From a virus: a stretch of 64,000 bases of DNA. Made by a program: the position numbers and the translations under genes. Location of the stretch: positions 124,001 through 188,000 of IMG/VR virus record IMGVR_UViG_3300013104_000001; one strand, written 5' to 3'. This document shows positions 12,047 to 56,516 of this stretch, piece by piece. The notes under the pieces were generated by a model. The model saw only the letters and a program-made list of their open reading frames with translations, made no database searches and was not told the DNA's origin. Each line of letters starts with the position of its first letter. The stretch's first letter is position 1.

Positions 12047-13117
12047 ATGGCCGGCGTAGATATTGGCAGCTCCATCCAGAACTCGATTAAGTCAGCGGGT
12101 GCAATCACGACCAATGCGGTGAACAAGGCGTCGTCTACGTTTGTCGGTGGAATCAAAGAGAACCTGGCGTTAATCGATGACAAAACAAAATCAGCGGTCC
12201 AAACGCTTAACTCGTATAAAGATACGGCGATTGGTTCAGTCGACGGGTTCATCAAGAAGGTCTCTAACGGCGCTCTAAGCATCTCAGAGCTCTCCAGCAT
12301 CATTGATGTACGTAATGGCATCAATATCGACTACATGCGCTTATATCGTCGCCTAGGCGATGCAGCGGGATTCCCAATGGATTCAATTGCTGGCATGACC
12401 AGTGATCTGAAGTTGGAAATTGCAAATGTCCTCGATGCGTATTCGAGTAAGAACTATACCTACCTGTTAAATGCAGCGGGTATCAAGATCAATGTGAACG
12501 ACGCTTCTTACAAAGCAATGCAGTTGATCTCAGGCGTCATCAGTAAGTATTCTGAAAGTGACTCTAAGTTTAACTACATTGTCGATGAAGCCGCACAGAT
12601 CGCTTTCCTAAACGTGATGGTACGTAACGCAGTACAGGTCGGTCTCTATAGCGGGATTGATACACTGCTTAACCAGTACACGATTAAATCAGAAGGCCTT
12701 AAGAACTTGGCCAACTGTGCATCGATCTCTATTCGTACCGGCGATGTCTGGACCACACAGTACATCGTTGATAAAGTCGGCATCGGAACCGTGGTTTCAT
12801 TGAACACCGATTTCCTGACTGATATGTTACGTTTCTTTAAATTCAAGTCAGATGCAACACCGGCGCAGTACCCTGATTATCTGAATACATTAATCTATTC
12901 GCTGAACCTGGCTGATGCAGATTGGGCGTTCAGAAACTTCGGTACCGTACGGGCATTGAACTTGAAGCCTTTTACAATGGCGTCTACTGATGCAATTACT
13001 CTGTTCTCTAACACTGAAACGTATCGACAACATGTAATGATTGCGAAGTCTTATCCGTCAAAAGACAAGATGGATCTGTTAACACAGATGTATCCGCAAT
13101 TGGCCATTGTGCAATAA
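12047..13117 (+). CDS. Predicted virion structural protein, 356 residues
   Basis: The product begins MAGVDIGSSIQNSIKSAGAI and is rich in Ser, Ala, Asn and Ile, with long stretches of alternating helix and no enzymatic motif. Its first ~90 residues are small-residue-rich amphipathic helix. TTGAGGATCACTC precedes the ATG. It stands alone between terminators, convergent with the two adhesin-like paralogues. Virion assignment rests on composition and on the structural neighbourhood downstream. Confidence 0.75.
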   Translation: MAGVDIGSSIQNSIKSAGAITTNAVNKASSTFVGGIKENLALIDDKTKSAVQTLNSYKDTAIGSVDGFIKKVSNGALSISELSSIIDVRNGINIDYMRLYRRLGDAAGFPMDSIAGMTSDLKLEIANVLDAYSSKNYTYLLNAAGIKINVNDASYKAMQLISGVISKYSESDSKFNYIVDEAAQIAFLNVMVRNAVQVGLYSGIDTLLNQYTIKSEGLKNLANCASISIRTGDVWTTQYIVDKVGIGTVVSLNTDFLTDMLRFFKFKSDATPAQYPDYLNTLIYSLNLADADWAFRNFGTVRALNLKPFTMASTDAITLFSNTETYRQHVMIAKSYPSKDKMDLLTQMYPQLAIVQ

Positions 13118-13129
13118 ATCGACATAGCT

Positions 13130-13156
13130 GAGGAAGGAGCGCAATGCTCCTTCCTC
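13130..13156. terminator. Bidirectional terminator hairpin
   Basis: A perfect 11-bp stem (GAGGAAGGAGC, loop GCAAT, GCTCCTTCCTC) lies between the convergent genes ending at 13117 and 13170. It is followed by TATGCC but only a weak T tract. Confidence 0.85.
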
Positions 13157-13169
13157 TATGCCACTTAAA

Positions 13170-13856
13170 TTATTGTACCAATTCCAAACACGGTCGCCAA
13201 GCTTGGTTACCAGTGGTGGTATAATCGTTACCACCTACTTTAGTAAATGCCTGACCGGCACTTTTTACCGAATAGTACTGAGTTGAACCGATGGTACATA
13301 TCTGGCCCGACAGCGTACCGTATGAGTTATGCCCTAAATCAGCAACGCTGTAATGCGCCCACTTATCACCTTCTTGAGATGCAGGCAGGGTGCCATCATC
13401 CCAAATGTTGTACATAAGACGATTCCACTCCGACCCATGTGACATGACTGGATCGACCCCGCCGTCGTACGCTGCTGGCGATACCTTCTGAACGGTCAGG
13501 TTCCGTACCCGATAAACCTTACCAGCTATAGTAATAGTTTTCTGGCCGTCAACGACTTTTGCGCTATCTATGTTACTACGACTAACTCCTGTTCTAATTG
13601 GTTTCTTAGCAACATATAAAACCTTTCCGTCGATCAGAAACTTTAACCACGGAAAAGTATCGGCGCCAGAGATTGCCGTACCGTAGTTAGCCATCCCTAC
13701 AGCGCTACTCAAAGTAGAGGCTTTAATGAAATCCTGGCTCTGGACCTCTCCATAAAAACCAGTATATCTTGTTGGGTCATTAGGTGTTTCATAATAACCA
13801 ATCAATGCATCGCCCGGTGCAGTCGGTCTACGACCTACCATTAACAATTCTAACAT
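13170..13856 (-). CDS. C-type-lectin-like virion protein, paralogue A
   Basis: The start at 13856 (MLELLMVGRR) is chosen because a perfect AGGAGG lies six bases upstream. The 228-residue product aligns along its whole length with its neighbour at 13962. Shared landmarks are the MLE.L.VG start, GFYGEV, WLKFL.DGK.L.VA, a central GSEWNRLMY and the C-terminal WRPxLELV. The last third (SVKSAGQAFTKV...GNQAWRPCLELV) resembles the C-type-lectin/formylglycine-enzyme-like fold that many phages use to display ligand-binding loops. A receptor-binding or tail-decoration role is inferred. Differences between the two copies cluster in the loop-like segments. Confidence 0.7.
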   Translation of the reverse strand: MLELLMVGRRPTAPGDALIGYYETPNDPTRYTGFYGEVQSQDFIKASTLSSAVGMANYGTAISGADTFPWLKFLIDGKVLYVAKKPIRTGVSRSNIDSAKVVDGQKTITIAGKVYRVRNLTVQKVSPAAYDGGVDPVMSHGSEWNRLMYNIWDDGTLPASQEGDKWAHYSVADLGHNSYGTLSGQICTIGSTQYYSVKSAGQAFTKVGGNDYTTTGNQAWRPCLELVQ

Positions 13857-30835: not shown

Positions 30836-32370
30836 TCAGACCATCTGAAGCAGCTGCCGGTACTGATTTAGCGCGACTGCTGACCAGTGCCGGGGTTAAC
30901 CTGGTTTCTGTCAATGGCGGCCCGCTTGATGCACTGCGCATGGCAACCGATATCGTCACCCCGGTTGTCGATGACAATATCGAAAGCACACTGGTTAACC
31001 GCACTAAGTCTGTATCGCTGGGCGGTAATAATGAAGACGGTTCTCCACGTGAGATTCCATCTGAACACGGTTGGGCGAAACAACGTTTAGTCGAAGCACT
31101 GACTGCCGGCGTACAGCAGATCTCTGCTGCGGCGAAGAACGTCGTAATCCCGACGATCAAACTGCTGCATGACCGTGTCGACCAGTATGTCGATGCTAAG
31201 TCAGACCCTGCCAGTTCAATGCCGGACATCAACGTTTACGTTTATGATAAGGTCTGGGATTCACAGGTGGTTGATGGAGTTGTTACTCATTACGCACAGG
31301 TTGGTCTGGTTGGCATGCCGACCGTTGAACTGCCAGCGCTTACTGATGAACAGCTCGCTGAACTGACGCAAACCGGTTCTTCTGAGTTCGCTGATTTCGT
31401 TGGTAAGCAGCTGGGTAAGAATCCTAATCTGGCACGTGCTATTTACCAGATTTGGTTCCAGGGCGCACTGACTTCAAGTCAGGATGAGTTTGTTTATCTG
31501 AGCCGTGTGCTGCAGACGAACAACACTGATCGCAACATCCAGGTGTTTGGTAATGACGCGCTGGATACTCGTCGCGTATACGAGCCGCTGGTGATGGCTT
31601 ACCTGATGGCCGATAACCTGTATAACAACCCAATCACTAACAGTGGTTTGTCAGGCGACCGTTATGCCATGGTTATGTCTGCTTTCCGCGCACACTTCGC
31701 TAAAGTCATTGAGCGCATCTATCGTACACGCATGGGTAACCTTGATCGTAAGATCTTGATCATCAGCATGCCTGTAGCAGATGGCTGGCGTTTAAATGGC
31801 TTGTCAAGCGAAACCCTGCTGCTGAACGGCGATGTTTATCAGTGGTATCTGCAAGGCGGCGGTTCGGTCGAAGGTATCCTGGGTAACGTGCATGGCGAAC
31901 GTTCTGTCAATGCGCGTACTATCCTCGATGCGAAAGATCGTAACGAAGCGGAATACGAGCGTGTTAGTTCGTTAGCCAAATCTCTCGCGATCACCAACAA
32001 GCACACGCTGACCATTCAGGGTATCATGAACGCGGTGGACAACCACATCGTTAATGAGATCTCTGATGCACGCTGGAAGGAGATCTACGAGAAGTACAGC
32101 TACGAGCAGAACAAGAACGATGCCATCACGGATATTCGTTACTATATCTCCACGCTGCAATCCGTACCAACCTACCAGGCAGTTGACGACGTGCTGACCT
32201 ATATCGTGACTAACATGATCTACGGTCCGCTGAACGTCTCTTCCTTCTTGAATGCCATGGCCAACTACCCGGACCAGACTCTGAGCCCGCGTGAAATCGC
32301 ATCGCATGTTGAGATGGATATCGTGATCGACAACTTGCTGCAGATGACCTACTACACCGGCGTTCGCTAA
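30832..32370 (+). CDS. Predicted virion structural protein, 512 residues
   Basis: The product is rich in Asn, Asp, Val and Leu with no enzymatic motif and no membrane segment. It begins MIRPSEAAAGTDLARLLTS and has an Ala/Lys helix near residue 95 (GVQQISAAAKNVVI). Codon use is GC-rich and regular, as expected for an abundant late protein. Its place between the RNA polymerase/endolysin genes and the prohead protease points to the virion, either head or tail. It is translationally coupled to the small gene upstream. Confidence 0.8.
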   Translation: MIRPSEAAAGTDLARLLTSAGVNLVSVNGGPLDALRMATDIVTPVVDDNIESTLVNRTKSVSLGGNNEDGSPREIPSEHGWAKQRLVEALTAGVQQISAAAKNVVIPTIKLLHDRVDQYVDAKSDPASSMPDINVYVYDKVWDSQVVDGVVTHYAQVGLVGMPTVELPALTDEQLAELTQTGSSEFADFVGKQLGKNPNLARAIYQIWFQGALTSSQDEFVYLSRVLQTNNTDRNIQVFGNDALDTRRVYEPLVMAYLMADNLYNNPITNSGLSGDRYAMVMSAFRAHFAKVIERIYRTRMGNLDRKILIISMPVADGWRLNGLSSETLLLNGDVYQWYLQGGGSVEGILGNVHGERSVNARTILDAKDRNEAEYERVSSLAKSLAITNKHTLTIQGIMNAVDNHIVNEISDARWKEIYEKYSYEQNKNDAITDIRYYISTLQSVPTYQAVDDVLTYIVTNMIYGPLNVSSFLNAMANYPDQTLSPREIASHVEMDIVIDNLLQMTYYTGVR

Positions 32371-32387
32371 CCTAACAGGATGGAAAC

Positions 32388-33113
32388 ATGGACCTGTCTA
32401 CATTAACACGCAACAAAGACAAGGTCCGTGCCAACCTTGTGGAGTTAGACGATAACTCGGTGGTAGCAAGAGAGGGGTGTAAGATTTACATCCCTGGTCG
32501 TTACGTCAACAAAGGGTTGGCAGGGATCGGTGACTCGATCTGGACCGTGGGTATCTACACCATGGTGACGGACTCTGGTTACTATTGCGCTGCGCTTGGC
32601 CCTGCATTAATCGCGCTGGAACCAACTGATATCCGCCAGGTAAAACTGGATGGTAACCCGTACTATGAATTCTCATTTGCGCCGGGTGCGACAGTTATTA
32701 AGTCAACAGTTGTCGGTAAGAACGATCGTATTATCGGACCGCTCTTTAATGAGTTCATTATTAATGGTAATGTGAACTACGGGTTTAACTTGCTCGATCT
32801 GATTAAGCTGTTCAAGCTTTCACAGAAGTACTGTGGTTTCACCATGGGTACGAACAACCAGATCTTCGAAGCGATTATCAACATCATCGCTCGTGACAGC
32901 AAAGATCTCAACAAGCTGTATCGCTACACAGTGACATCGCTTGAAGATATCTACACTAACCCGCCTACCATTATCGGTCTGCGTAATGCGGCTAAGACGT
33001 CGACGAACACCGTGGCGAAACTGGTGGGTAGTTATTTTGCGGATGGCTTAGTCTCTGCATTGATCAATCCATCAGATCGTGTAGAAGGCGTTGAAGAGAT
33101 TTTAAGGAAATAA
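32388..33113 (+). CDS. Predicted virion-associated protein, 241 residues
   Basis: ACAGGATGGAAAC precedes the ATG. The N-terminal half is beta-rich (GCKIYIPGRYVNKGLAGIGDSIWTVGIYTMV), and the C-terminal half is helical with the acidic end VEGVEEILRK. No catalytic motif is seen. It is the middle gene of a three-gene run, with gaps of 17 and 2 bases, that leads to the prohead protease, so a head-assembly or virion role is likely from context only. Confidence 0.78.
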   Translation: MDLSTLTRNKDKVRANLVELDDNSVVAREGCKIYIPGRYVNKGLAGIGDSIWTVGIYTMVTDSGYYCAALGPALIALEPTDIRQVKLDGNPYYEFSFAPGATVIKSTVVGKNDRIIGPLFNEFIINGNVNYGFNLLDLIKLFKLSQKYCGFTMGTNNQIFEAIINIIARDSKDLNKLYRYTVTSLEDIYTNPPTIIGLRNAAKTSTNTVAKLVGSYFADGLVSALINPSDRVEGVEEILRK

Positions 33114-35458: not shown

Positions 35459-35478
35459 TATATTACCAATGTGCTAAG
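35459..35478 (+). promoter_or_regulatory. Early-type promoter, TATATTAC box
   Basis: TATATTAC at 35459-35466 is followed by CAATGTGCTAAG. The same TATATTAY-NNATGTG arrangement occurs at 53140 and 60203, each in an intergenic AT-rich gap ahead of rightward genes. phiKZ early promoters used by the virion RNA polymerase are known to be AT-rich with a TATATTAC-like core. The site lies about 70 bases before the abundant-type gene at 35535. Confidence 0.7.
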
Positions 35479-35534: not shown

Positions 35535-35978
35535 ATGAGCAAGACTACCGATGTAAACGCAACTACCCGCGCTTTGGCTGACTCTCTGAAATCAGCGATG
35601 ACCAAAGGCACTAACGGCGGTTACACTGCAGCAGAAGGCTGGTACGGCGAGAACCTGCCAGAAGGTCTGACTGTGGAACAGCGTCAACGTTTCGACGAGC
35701 ATGACAGCTCCGTTACCGCAGCAACGGTACTGGCACTCGGCGAACTGGCAATCCCGGATATGAAAGAAAACGCGGATATCACTGAAGCGACTGTTTCTAT
35801 CAATCTGGGTGCAAACCGCATTAACGCCTCTGTACTTCGCGACTACACCAACGGCAAAGAAGCCTATCATGGCCATGCAATTGCAAGCTATGAAGTGAAC
35901 AGCGCTGGCGTGAACCGTGGCGAACTCGGTCTGGCAATGACTGCAGTCCGTAACCTGGCAGATGAACTGCTGGGCTAA
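35535..35978 (+). CDS. Small acidic protein, probably abundant early product
   Basis: The 147-residue protein begins MSKTTDVNATTRALADSL and is acidic, Ala/Asn-rich and soluble. Its codons are unusually uniform and GC-ending compared with neighbours, typical of a highly expressed gene. AAAGGAAAGAATCAC precedes the ATG. It is the first gene after an early-type promoter, and a string of RNA hairpins follows its stop. No family is recognised. Likely roles include an early host-takeover or packaging-associated protein, but nothing decides between them. Confidence 0.8.
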   Translation: MSKTTDVNATTRALADSLKSAMTKGTNGGYTAAEGWYGENLPEGLTVEQRQRFDEHDSSVTAATVLALGELAIPDMKENADITEATVSINLGANRINASVLRDYTNGKEAYHGHAIASYEVNSAGVNRGELGLAMTAVRNLADELLG

Positions 35979-35991
35979 GTAAAGATGTAAC

Positions 35992-36208
35992 CACGGAAAG
36001 CTTAGACAACTTTCCGTGTCAAACATATCCGGCCATAAGGCCATCCACTAATAAAGTGTGAAAGTCAACTTCACGCATTAGAAGTGCGCCCGAAAGACAT
36101 TCAAAAAATAGACAAAGTAATCAAAGGTGCGGACCGGAAAAACCGTACCTTTCTTTACTGTGTTTAATTCCAAACACGGTACTCACCCTCAGCATTCAGA
36201 AAGAATGC
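35992..36208 (+). ncRNA. Run of six consecutive hairpins (structured leader or small RNA)
   Basis: Six local stems occupy 217 bases: CACGGAAAG/CTTTCCGTG (35992-36018); GGCC/GGCC (36031-36042); CTAAT+GTGTGAA / TTCACGC+ATTAG (36048-36081); AAAGGTGCGG/CCGTACCTTT (36123-36152); ACTGTGTTT/AAACACGGT (36157-36180); GCATTC/GAATGC (36192-36208). Each has G-U wobbles or a bulge at most. There is no gene here and no T tract after any stem. The region separates the acidic early protein from the gene at 36229. It could be a structured 5' leader, a processed small RNA or a protective 3' end. RNA class is unknown. Confidence 0.55.
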
Positions 36209-36228
36209 CAAATGAAAGGATAAAGTAC

Positions 36229-37647
36229 ATGAAACTCAATATCGATGCGAACGTAATCAAATCTCCTCTGCAAAGTGAATTTGTGATTGCTGATCGTATT
36301 CAGCTCGAAACGGATAGCCTGTCTATTATGCTTAACGCGATAGACATCAACGTCCCGATCAACAATATCAACACCGGTACGTTCAACGAGTTCCGCTATG
36401 AAGGTCGCCAGAAAGAAGGTAACTGGATGGCGTACTGGGTCGCTGTGAAAGCGAAAGACCTGATCGAACTCTATCCGCATATCCATGCGCATCTACCTGG
36501 GGCGGTACGTAACCAAACGCCTTATGATTTCCAGATGAGCATTGGTTATGGCATCGAGCCCCTCAAGGCATTTGAACGAGACCCTAATCAACCAGCATCC
36601 CGTTACATCGAAGTGAATGCCGTCGAAGCCGGTAGCGAAGAGCTTGCTGTACGTCAGGTGTTATCTGCAGTTGCCGGTCAGTTACTGACAAGCCACCGCG
36701 ATAACGCACACTTCGTAAACATGATTAGTGTGCATATTGCCGAACAGTTAATCCATTTGGGGATGACTCACTTTAAACAAGGTGATCTCAAGTTCAACGG
36801 ATTCCTGCGGACACACAACGGCCTGGTTCAAACAGAACGTATGTGGCGTCTAGGCAATCCTGGTACCGGCAAACTGTCTCTGCGCCAGACGTTGCTCACG
36901 CAACAAACTGGGCCTAATACCCGCACTACTCATTTGGTCAATGCAGATGACCATCAGGTATACGGGATTGATGGTAAGTACGAACAGCCGAACGGTTCCA
37001 TGAACGCAGGTTTTATGCCAGGTTTCAATTCATTCACGGGTGGTAACCAAGGTCATTACAACACGCCTGGCTACGCTCAGCAGTACGGCATGCCAGCAGG
37101 ACCGCTGTCATCAGATGGTCCAAACTATCAGCCGATGAACATGCCAATGCAATTCGGTATGGAACCAGGTATGAATCCGATGCAACAGCTGGCAAACAGT
37201 GCGCCAAATCAGTCCGTGACTATGCCTGGTGTTAAACCACTGATGGAACACACACCTGAAGAGTTACGCAAGTTGATGCCTTCGATGTACGGCAATGTAT
37301 CAGACAAAGTTGAAACTGCGCCAGTGCCAGCTATCAACAATCGCACTCTGACTGAAAGTGATCTGGGGCCACGTAACGAAGACACGCCAATCGTCGGTAA
37401 GGTGGTAAGCATCGAAGTAGCTCCGGTGCTGATTACCGAAGACACTGCATCAGTGGTTACCGATGGTAGTCACAATGCATACGGCGTATATCGTCGCGAG
37501 AAACAAGATGATACGACCCTTGCAGTACATATCGGTGATTTCCTTAGCGCCGATCTGGCTGTGAAGTATGCTATCAAAATGGGTAAGTTCTTTAACGTGT
37601 ATGTTGACGACTACGTTAGCGCTCCTCCTGTAGAAGCTAACGAGTAA
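36229..37647 (+). CDS. Two-domain protein with disordered Met/Gly/Pro/Asn/Gln-rich centre
   Basis: The ATG at 36229 (MKLNIDANVIKSPLQ) is chosen for GAAAGGATAAAGTAC upstream. An in-frame GTG at 36127 would translate through the hairpin region. The 472-residue product has a folded N-terminal part (about 1-245). Next is a low-complexity stretch (about 250-330) dense in Met, Gly, Pro, Asn, Gln, Phe and Tyr (GFMPGFNSFTGGNQGHYN, MNMPMQFGMEPGMNPM). A smaller C-terminal domain ends in DYVSAPPVEANE. The middle is the kind of sequence that is intrinsically disordered and can support condensation or multivalent binding. No enzymatic motif is seen. It is followed by tandem terminators. Confidence 0.82.
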   Translation: MKLNIDANVIKSPLQSEFVIADRIQLETDSLSIMLNAIDINVPINNINTGTFNEFRYEGRQKEGNWMAYWVAVKAKDLIELYPHIHAHLPGAVRNQTPYDFQMSIGYGIEPLKAFERDPNQPASRYIEVNAVEAGSEELAVRQVLSAVAGQLLTSHRDNAHFVNMISVHIAEQLIHLGMTHFKQGDLKFNGFLRTHNGLVQTERMWRLGNPGTGKLSLRQTLLTQQTGPNTRTTHLVNADDHQVYGIDGKYEQPNGSMNAGFMPGFNSFTGGNQGHYNTPGYAQQYGMPAGPLSSDGPNYQPMNMPMQFGMEPGMNPMQQLANSAPNQSVTMPGVKPLMEHTPEELRKLMPSMYGNVSDKVETAPVPAINNRTLTESDLGPRNEDTPIVGKVVSIEVAPVLITEDTASVVTDGSHNAYGVYRREKQDDTTLAVHIGDFLSADLAVKYAIKMGKFFNVYVDDYVSAPPVEANE

Positions 37648-37668: not shown

Positions 37669-37799
37669 GGGGGTCGGCATGACTGACCCCCAGTTTTAAC
37701 ATTCGCCATGAAGGGGCCTGGAGCCCCTTTTTTTTTACCCCAATATAAAAGAGATGACAGGCGATGACCTGTTGTCCTTTACCCAACTCTTTTTTTTTA
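37669..37799 (+). terminator. Tandem terminators
   Basis: Two strong hairpins are followed by a third weaker one: GGGGGTC/GACCCCC (37669-37691) then AGTTTT; AAGGGGC/GCCCCTT (37711-37729) with nine T; and GACAGG...CCTGTTGTC (37755-37775) ahead of a further T run at 37791. The stack insulates the early-type unit from the genes after 37842. Confidence 0.85.
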
Positions 37800-37841
37800 T
37801 TCAAAGATTATACACAGCTCATTTATAGTGAGGTTTCTATC

Positions 37842-38237
37842 ATGAACATTTGGACCATGCAAATCGCTAGATGGAAACTCGCTAAAGATCGCGGTATCGT
37901 ATTTATCGACACCACCATTAAGTCCGCTAAAGAGTATGCTTTCCTGGCCCCTACTTGGGATATGGTCATGGGACATAAACAAGGTAGCATCAGTGATAAC
38001 GGATACACTGAACTTTACTATGAGTTGTTAAGATCCCGTTACAAAGCGGATAAACAACCCTTTCTAAAGCTTTTGTCAGATTTTAAAGATTGTGATATTG
38101 CCATCGCTTGCTATTGCACAGCGGGACAATTCTGCCACCGTCATTTGCTTGTAAACATTTTGCAGGCAATCGCAGTTAAAGAAAAGATACCTTTCGATTA
38201 TAAAGGTGAGCTTATTTTAGGAGAGCACGTAACATGA
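37842..38237 (+). CDS. DUF488-like Cys-motif protein
   Basis: ATG at 37842 (MNIWTMQIARWKLAKDRG) has GTGAGGTTTCTATC upstream. An in-frame start at 37764 lies within the terminator region. The 131-residue product has the motif IACYCTAGQFCHRHLL near residues 85-100. This matches the C-x-C-x(4)-F-C-H-R segment of DUF488-type and related phage proteins, and suggests a metal or substrate site. The N-terminal half has a TTIKSAKEYAFLAPTWDMV segment like the beta-strand/loop of that family. Biochemical role is unknown. It overlaps the next gene by four bases. Confidence 0.72.
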   Translation: MNIWTMQIARWKLAKDRGIVFIDTTIKSAKEYAFLAPTWDMVMGHKQGSISDNGYTELYYELLRSRYKADKQPFLKLLSDFKDCDIAIACYCTAGQFCHRHLLVNILQAIAVKEKIPFDYKGELILGEHVT

Positions 38238-53427: not shown

Positions 53428-54303
53428 ATGATGAAAGTTATCAATGTATTTGAGTTTTCTGAAATGTTGCAGAACACTCCAGGGATCAGTAAATCCACTT
53501 TCTATATTCACCCGGCAAATATCCTGACCGGTGATAACGCGCTAACGTTGTTCTTTCACATGGATGATGCAGGCGATGTCTATGTGGTTGAAGATCAACT
53601 GGGTAAATCACCGAAGCTGGTTAAGATCGATAGCCCAGAGCTTAACACCATTCTGTTCTTCAAACAGGGTTCGTCTACATGGGGGGAAGGTTACTTCCAT
53701 GCTGCCGTTATGCGCTATAGCGCAGTAGAAACGCTTCAGGCGGTTCAAGAGCGTTATAACTCGCTACCGATCACCGAATTCGTAAAAGACTCTCTGCATG
53801 CTTTACAGCGCGCTGACTGGGTGGTTGTACCACAGTTAGCGGTAAGTGGTGAAGCGGTATCACGTGATATGCTGGAAGTGGTACTTTCCAGACCTGGTAA
53901 TATCAACCTCAGTGTGATCAAGTTCTGTCACGAGGATGAGACCTATAATGTCGTCGGCAAAGGCTTTCGCGAAGAGGTGATGCTGGAGTTAATCCGCTAT
54001 GATGAGAAACTGCACAATGCATACTTCTCAGGGATCGTTGCGGGTAAACCAATCTACCAGCGCGTGAAGCTTGAAGAAGTTTCCTTTCGCGGCGACTATG
54101 ATTTCATGCAGTGGGTGAAGACACACAACTTCGACAATGGCGATGCTGGCCATGGCCTGTGGTGGGTTCGCCACATGGGTGTATCACTGCATGTTGAGAG
54201 CAACAGTCTTACCATCAAAAACCCGCACTTGTCTGTGCGCGGTATCGTTAAGAACATTCCCGATAGTTACGACACTATTAACAACCGCACTGTTATTCTT
54301 TAA
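53428..54303 (+). CDS. Hypothetical protein, 291 residues
   Basis: ATGATG start follows GTAAGGACTC. The product begins MMKVINVFEFSEMLQNTPGIS and alternates strands and helices with Trp/His/Asp-rich loops (HNFDNGDAGHGLWWVRHMG). No family is recognised. It is in the early-type operon. Confidence 0.72.
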   Translation: MMKVINVFEFSEMLQNTPGISKSTFYIHPANILTGDNALTLFFHMDDAGDVYVVEDQLGKSPKLVKIDSPELNTILFFKQGSSTWGEGYFHAAVMRYSAVETLQAVQERYNSLPITEFVKDSLHALQRADWVVVPQLAVSGEAVSRDMLEVVLSRPGNINLSVIKFCHEDETYNVVGKGFREEVMLELIRYDEKLHNAYFSGIVAGKPIYQRVKLEEVSFRGDYDFMQWVKTHNFDNGDAGHGLWWVRHMGVSLHVESNSLTIKNPHLSVRGIVKNIPDSYDTINNRTVIL

Positions 54304-55547: not shown

Positions 55548-56516
55548 ATGGATAAGAAATTACCAGGTCAAGATAAGCCAGAAGGCGTTACTACCAAACT
55601 GACAGACGCTTTTGGTAGTAAAGGTGTAGCGGTGCAGGTAACCCCTGAAAACGAACTGCCGCAGGATGCAGAAGGGAACATTGCTGATTTGCTGCGTGTC
55701 GGTAATGATAGTCTGAACCCTCACAGCCCAGGTATGGGTGGCGGTGCTCGAGGTATGATGTTTGGTGAGGTACCGCCACGATCCAACGCTAACCCGCTCG
55801 GTATCGAATCAATGGAAGAGCTCGATTCGCTGAAAGGTACGCTTAATCAGGTATTGTCAGATGATCAGAAAAATGCACTCGGCATGCTGGGTGAACTGAT
55901 TGATGGAAAATTCGACAACGAATATCCTGATGTCGTATACCTGACTATCGCGGTACCGGTAGATGCGGGTAAGACAATGGGGCGTAAAGCTATGCTGGAG
56001 AAACTTCTGGCAGAAACTCCACCGGGTGGCATTAGCGGTCATTGGAATCACCCTGTTCAAGCTGCGCGACTGACAGACCATCATGTGTGTATTGCTATCG
56101 ATGATGAAGGAGATGGGTCATTGACGAAACTGCTGTTCCGTGAATACCCTACTTCTATCGGAACCGATGACGCTGCAAAAGAACAACAGTTGCGGTATTT
56201 GCTGGATACTCACCCCGTGCGCCCTAGCGACAGTGTGCTTAACGCAAATGTGTACTACAGCAAGAACTTCTCGCCGTTGTCACTTGCTACCATCCGTGCG
56301 CCATTACCTATATCGGGTAATAAGTTCGTACGGTATGGTACGTACTGCGAACGTCTGGCGACACTAGAGACCGAGCTCGTTGAAATTGACGGTGTTAAAA
56401 TGGAACGGTTACTGGCGATGACATTGTTTAGTCTCGCTGGTGATAAGTCCAACATTACCCTGTACAGTCTTGATGACGGTCCTGAACTGTTTATTTTAGT
56501 CAAGGTAAACAACTAA
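55548..56516 (+). CDS. Hypothetical protein, 322 residues, with one protease-type motif
   Basis: ATG at 55548 (MDKKLPGQDKPEGVTT) has AAGGAGACAATC upstream. An earlier in-frame start at 55437 lies within the previous gene. Residues 1-80 are Gly/Pro/Asp-rich and likely disordered. G85-I-E87 before SMEELDS resembles the head-protease motif contexts but is in an otherwise different protein. The rest is mixed alpha/beta (VYLTIAVPVDAGKTMGRK). No family is recognised. It ends the operon before a strong terminator. Confidence 0.75.
   Translation: MDKKLPGQDKPEGVTTKLTDAFGSKGVAVQVTPENELPQDAEGNIADLLRVGNDSLNPHSPGMGGGARGMMFGEVPPRSNANPLGIESMEELDSLKGTLNQVLSDDQKNALGMLGELIDGKFDNEYPDVVYLTIAVPVDAGKTMGRKAMLEKLLAETPPGGISGHWNHPVQAARLTDHHVCIAIDDEGDGSLTKLLFREYPTSIGTDDAAKEQQLRYLLDTHPVRPSDSVLNANVYYSKNFSPLSLATIRAPLPISGNKFVRYGTYCERLATLETELVEIDGVKMERLLAMTLFSLAGDKSNITLYSLDDGPELFILVKVNN

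Follow-up and report, generated by a model that had tools for sequence, protein, structure and literature searches.

A conserved structured RNA in jumbo phages of enterobacterial hosts, and its probable role as a small RNA

The window analyzed here is a stretch of 64,000 nucleotides (positions 124001 to 188000) from a 287,406-bp virus record, IMGVR_UViG_3300013104_000001, which is kin to the Erwinia jumbo phages of the genus Agricanvirus. Within it, a gap at 35979-36228 is bounded by genes encoding 147-aa and 472-aa proteins; a series of hairpins begins 13 nt past the stop codon of the 147-aa gene, which is of early type. The features of the locus are as follows, with P1 to P3 referred to below as the core.

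35459-35473, + strand: phiKZ-type early (virion RNA polymerase) promoter element TATATTACCAATGTG, an exact match to TATATTACNNNTGTG, with a predicted start near 35473
35535-35978, + strand: 147-aa gene, of a family widespread in phiKZ-like phages; here the RNA lies in its 3' UTR
35992-36018, + strand: hairpin P1, a 9-bp covarying stem with loop CUUAGACAA (conserved UA(A)GACA)
36031-36042, + strand: small hairpin GGCC-AUAA-GGCC, present only in the window and the Agricanvirus group
36046-36086 (about), + strand: P2 region, a variable hairpin whose pairing in this phage is less certain than that of P1 and P3
36087-36115, + strand: conserved linker GCCCGAAAGACAUUCAAAAAAUAGACAA, in which AGACA occurs twice (at 36095 and 36110)
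36116-36159, + strand: hairpin P3, covarying, with a 10-bp upper stem (36123-36132/36143-36152) and a lower stem (36116-36120/36155-36159)
36156-36181, + strand: hairpin P4, covarying, an alternative to the P3 lower stem that probably belongs to the leader of the 472-aa gene
36192-36211, + strand: hairpin P5 (stem-loop 36192-36208), GCAUUC-AGAAA-GAAUGC plus CAA, invariant and just 5' of the ribosome-binding site of the gene at 36229
36229-37647, + strand: 472-aa downstream gene; its family is lacking in those records of SNUABM_37, the L029 genome, and Klebsiella and Serratia phages in which the core occurs
37710-37738, + strand: intrinsic-terminator-like hairpin, the likely end of the transcription unit

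Two genes downstream, a 157-aa ORF (37764-38237) has a DUF488-type domain (PF22751, E 4e-8).

The original prediction had described the hairpins as following a small gene with an early-type promoter, and the phiKZ-type element at 35459, upstream of the 147-aa gene, agrees with this. The TATATTACNNNTGTG element matches published phiKZ and 201phi2-1 motifs (PMC7058600); in phiKZ and phiR1-37 transcription starts 6 nt past the element (PMC5312081). At ≤1 mismatch, this genome has 10 forward and 0 reverse TATATTACNNNTGTG sites, and throughout the Erwinia/Salmonella group a TATATTACNNNTGTG-type element precedes the ortholog of the 147-aa gene. The window copy of the RNA lacks a promoter or terminator of its own, and only the promoter of the upstream gene precedes it. 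As had been predicted, the region has no T tract; it also has no + strand terminator-like site after P3.

All six of the local stems predicted within 217 bases were found where they had been placed. The minimum free energy (MFE) of the 217-nt stretch is −63.4 kcal/mol compared to a shuffle mean of −37.5 (z −5.94), and none of 200 dinucleotide shuffles folded as well, so that the predicted excess of structure withstood comparison with shuffled controls. The opposite strand is also structured, albeit less so (z −3.9). Among 639 + strand windows scanned, the 200-nt window at 36001 ranked fourth by z, behind the window at 56401, which contains a terminator-like hairpin, and an overlapping pair that spans the start of ORF 32388-33113. 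The latter site (32301-32600) has the strongest + strand local folding of the whole window (z about −8.3; MFE −78 for 32401-32600), in a fold spanning the start of that 241-aa ORF. Elsewhere, within 13090-13310, a long and perfectly paired hairpin lies near 13130 (GAGGAAGGAGC...GCTCCTTCCTC; z about −6.1). No Rfam 15 model (riboswitches, group I introns, phi29 pRNA, CsrB, and others) matched the window at its gathering score, and a relaxed threshold gave a single chance match of 13.6 bits; a tRNA/tmRNA search of the window found none.

Agricanvirus, Salmonella phage SA002, and Erwinia phages pEa_SNUABM_37/48 all keep a gap of roughly 250 nt here. To these we added IMG/VR contigs found by a search with the P5 sequence, and phage L029, found by a protein search; a BLAST match to the SNUABM_37 P1 sequence led to the Klebsiella jumbo phages FBKp24 and Centimanus, and these in turn to KpLz-2_45 and the Serratia/Pectobacterium Moabitevirus group. 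A covariance model (R1) trained only on SA002, SNUABM_37, L029, and L031, with the window left out, gave the window RNA a score of 29.7 bits (E 2.5e-6 against 211 kb of sequence) and picked up the equivalent Agricanvirus gap as well. Searched against the window's own 287-kb genome, R1 gave the RNA an E-value of 3.4e-6 and its next-best match one of 0.126. R1 also found unlinked copies in jumbo phages of Klebsiella, with an E-value near 1e-5, and of Serratia, where a diverged copy with one AGACA scored about 1e-4. Because calibration was short, the E-values are rough.

Under stricter filters and in a whole-record search, R1 missed Desertfox and Kodama; a second model, R2, finds the copies in both, which were part of its training set. 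No convincing R2 match was obtained in the phiKZ, SPN3US, Goslar, phiEaH2, or LucasX records; the sole phiKZ match (53480-53642) was weak (E 0.04) and lacks the motif. Further R2 matches in Klebsiella phages, Desertfox, and Proteus phage 10 were rejected: those inspected had no conserved GACAUUC linker, and they end in hairpins of terminator type. Matches to the sequence pattern in L036-L046, L067, L069, L071, and L072 were judged to be chance, mostly coding or transposon-end-like, L036-L046 on reading of the sequence and the other four additionally for want of a convincing model match. In one of them (L036:6745-6840), a repeated TAAGACA (TAAGACACC, TAAGACATAG, TAAGACATTC) resembles transposon-end binding sites. 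KpLz-2_45 contains a second, weak model match (L047:1859-1942; E 0.0136) about 200 nt 3' of the RNA, in which CCGAAGACATCCTGAAAAACAA is followed by a hairpin and which overlaps the end of an annotated ORF of the 82-aa class.

Relatives of the window show the covariation expected of a conserved fold, and here too the original prediction survived. In an alignment fitted to the structure (A11), which leans towards structure for that reason, 95% of cells pair, compared to 34 to 46% when partners are slid by 1 to 3 columns; double compensatory changes are seen at 29 of 43 pairs, and none of 500 shuffles reached any of the five measures. In sequence-only alignments, double changes occur in 7 of the 15 predicted pairs of P3, and two pairs of P1 covary when the window is compared with Agricanvirus. 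Manual reading of the stems also supports P1, and P4 shows compensatory changes of its own. The apex of P2 varies among lineages. The region had been described as free of genes, and indeed no reading frame is conserved among the relatives: a small protein annotated across the RNA in Erwinia phage AH06 (AH06_183, 57 aa; L003:3499-3672) is probably spurious, since its frame is not conserved. Conserved structure is thus combined with the lack of a conserved reading frame, as in small noncoding RNAs, and the region 35992-36159 is almost certainly a conserved structured RNA.

Inverted repeats can also be DNA elements, and the genome position of this one shifts between lineages; nevertheless, it is highly improbable that what is conserved is a DNA element, such as a signal for replication or packaging, and not an RNA. 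The + strand folds more significantly than its complement, G-U pairs are tolerated in the stems, loop and linker sequences are conserved as well as the stems, and all well-supported copies lie on the transcribed strand, downstream of or adjoining early promoters.

The loops had been described as sharing no sequence similarity, but this was wrong: the exposed segments share AGACA. This motif occurs three times in the window RNA (36004, 36095, and 36110, including one in GACAUUC), compared to 0.2 expected from shuffles, and nine of ten copies of the RNA contain two or three, the exception being the Serratia copy. In the P1 loop the sequence is UAGACA or UAAGACA. All seven of the Erwinia, Salmonella, and IMG lineages compared have the last motif of the linker in the same form. 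Because these exposed motifs are repeated and conserved, we propose, as distinct from prove, that they may be binding sites for an RNA or protein partner.

The original prediction offered three roles for the structure: a small RNA, a leader controlling the gene at 36229, or a stabilizing 3' end. As for the second, P3 and P4 are suggestive of a switch: P4 overlaps the 3' arm of P3, which makes P4 and the lower part of P3 alternatives; the two share UACU, both are conserved, and their energies are nearly equal (−71.3 and −69.5 kcal/mol). Moreover, the invariant P5 lies just 5' of the start codon. A cis-acting leader or switch would control expression of the gene at 36229 through the P3/P4 overlap and through P5 beside the ribosome-binding site. 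However, the family of this gene (profile A12) is missing from the whole SNUABM_37 and L029-genome records, where a different gene follows the core; P1-P3 is kept in SNUABM_37/48 and L029 in the absence of both the gene and P5, and in the Klebsiella and Serratia phages the core likewise has a different downstream gene. In SNUABM_37, different sequence takes the place of P4, and in L029 this hairpin is cut short. P5 occurs once per genome, which rules it out as a repeated genomic signal, and is missing in records without the downstream gene. L029 is almost identical to L021/L031, which retains the downstream gene and P5; reading L029 (3433-3720) against L031 (172-500), it looks as though a recent deletion of the gene and P5 moved a terminator-like hairpin beside the core. 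Because the core persists where the gene and P5 are absent, P1-P3 is independent of the downstream gene and P5 travels with it. The core is therefore not constantly associated with one downstream gene family, as a leader or riboswitch would be, and we consider cis control by the structure as a whole improbable. The idea of a leader nonetheless stands for part of the block: P5 belongs to the leader of the gene at 36229 and P4 probably does, but the core does not.

The upstream gene is similarly separable. Its 147-aa protein belongs to a family found in phiKZ, Goslar, Serratia phages, and, weakly, Klebsiella phages; the predicted fold (mean pLDDT 77) is similar to that of uncharacterized phage proteins, among them ones from KTN4, RSF1, and Phabio, and no solved structure matched at E ≤ 0.001. 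About 25 kb separate the ortholog from the RNA in Kodama and KpLz-2_45, which shows that gene and RNA can be parted. We also considered this protein as a partner of the RNA, but the idea is unsupported: Klebsiella and Serratia phages have the ortholog at another locus, and the fold matches only uncharacterized phage proteins. On a separate point of annotation, the start of Desertfox gp175 is placed 198 nt downstream of that of its homologs (L002:3704-3902).

In Klebsiella phages the RNA appears to form a unit of its own. In KpLz-2_45, the genome's single TATATTACNNNTGTG site ends immediately 5' of the RNA match, as does a one-mismatch promoter site in FBKp24. The predicted Klebsiella RNA would start about 3 nt 5' of P1; at its other end is a GC-rich hairpin followed by a T-rich tail, where the FBKp24 depositors annotated a terminator. 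These copies bear on the possibility that the hairpins merely stabilize the 3' end of the 147-aa mRNA by blocking exonucleases, with no separate RNA function. A highly structured element 13 nt past the stop codon of an early-type gene would suit such a role; however, the Klebsiella copy has a predicted promoter of its own and follows a tail-fiber gene, and the conservation of loops and linker, not of stems alone, makes a purely stabilizing 3' end unlikely.

The small-RNA role is the best supported of the three, because the core persists without the downstream gene and because Klebsiella phages carry an apparent promoter-RNA-terminator unit. We favor, with some confidence, a trans-acting early small RNA of Enterobacterales jumbo phages whose core is 35992-36159 (P1-P2-P3); it is probably expressed early and probably has a small-RNA role of its own. 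We infer that the injected virion RNA polymerase would transcribe the RNA early, starting at the TATATTAC promoter (35459), with the RNA forming the 3' UTR of the 147-aa gene, and that processing there would release or stabilize it, release from the mRNA being assumed; in Klebsiella phages it would instead be a stand-alone early gene. Its single-stranded AGACA repeats, in the P1 loop and linker, would be presented in trans to an RNA or protein partner, with P5 and probably P4 serving as the leader of the gene at 36229. A more speculative extension, which we think doubtful as it stands, is that the family acts in the first minutes of infection to capture one host or phage RNA-binding partner via AGACA, as a takeover RNA active before the phage nucleus forms; some phages would encode it by itself, others in the 3' UTR of an early gene.

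We appear to have found a new RNA family that jumbo phages infecting different enterobacterial hosts (Erwinia, Salmonella, Klebsiella, and Serratia) have in common. Its structure covaries, its exposed motifs are conserved, and the Klebsiella copies have a predicted early promoter to themselves. This raises the question of whether giant phages use RNA besides proteins for early host takeover; the cultured phages Ea35-70, RAY, SA002, and KpLz-2_45 allow a direct test of the RNA.

CsrB and RsmZ are protein-sequestering RNAs with several short, exposed motif copies in their loops and linkers. The family described here differs in that its motif is AGACA, not GGA, occurs mostly in two or three copies, and comes with no Rfam match; a CsrB/RsmZ-type sponge was rejected because many exposed GGA motifs were not found and the repeated motif is AGACA. 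Our literature search, with most subscription journals and all preprints outside its scope, found no published description of this RNA. A Grad-seq study noted a mere 21 ncRNAs described in phages and reported two in phiKZ (PMC8545117). One of these, the p40 ncRNA, is about 180 nt long and derived from a 5' UTR (PMC8545117); like the window RNA it is a structured, UTR-derived phage RNA, but its description sets it apart by that 5' UTR origin. The other, the 3'-UTR ncRNA of PHIKZ298, is about 100 nt long, was detected by Grad-seq, contains stem-loops, and is proposed to arise by 3' UTR processing (PMC8545117). It has a different sequence and different neighbors: the phiKZ 298-297 gap contains no AGACA, GACATTC, GGTCAA, or GGTTAA and no R2 match, and, judged by these motifs and the model, the window RNA is not its relative. 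The likeness that we draw in this work to the UTR-derived ncRNAs of phiKZ (PMC8545117) is one of kind: as with PHIKZ298, the window has a structured RNA at the 3' end of a jumbo phage gene.
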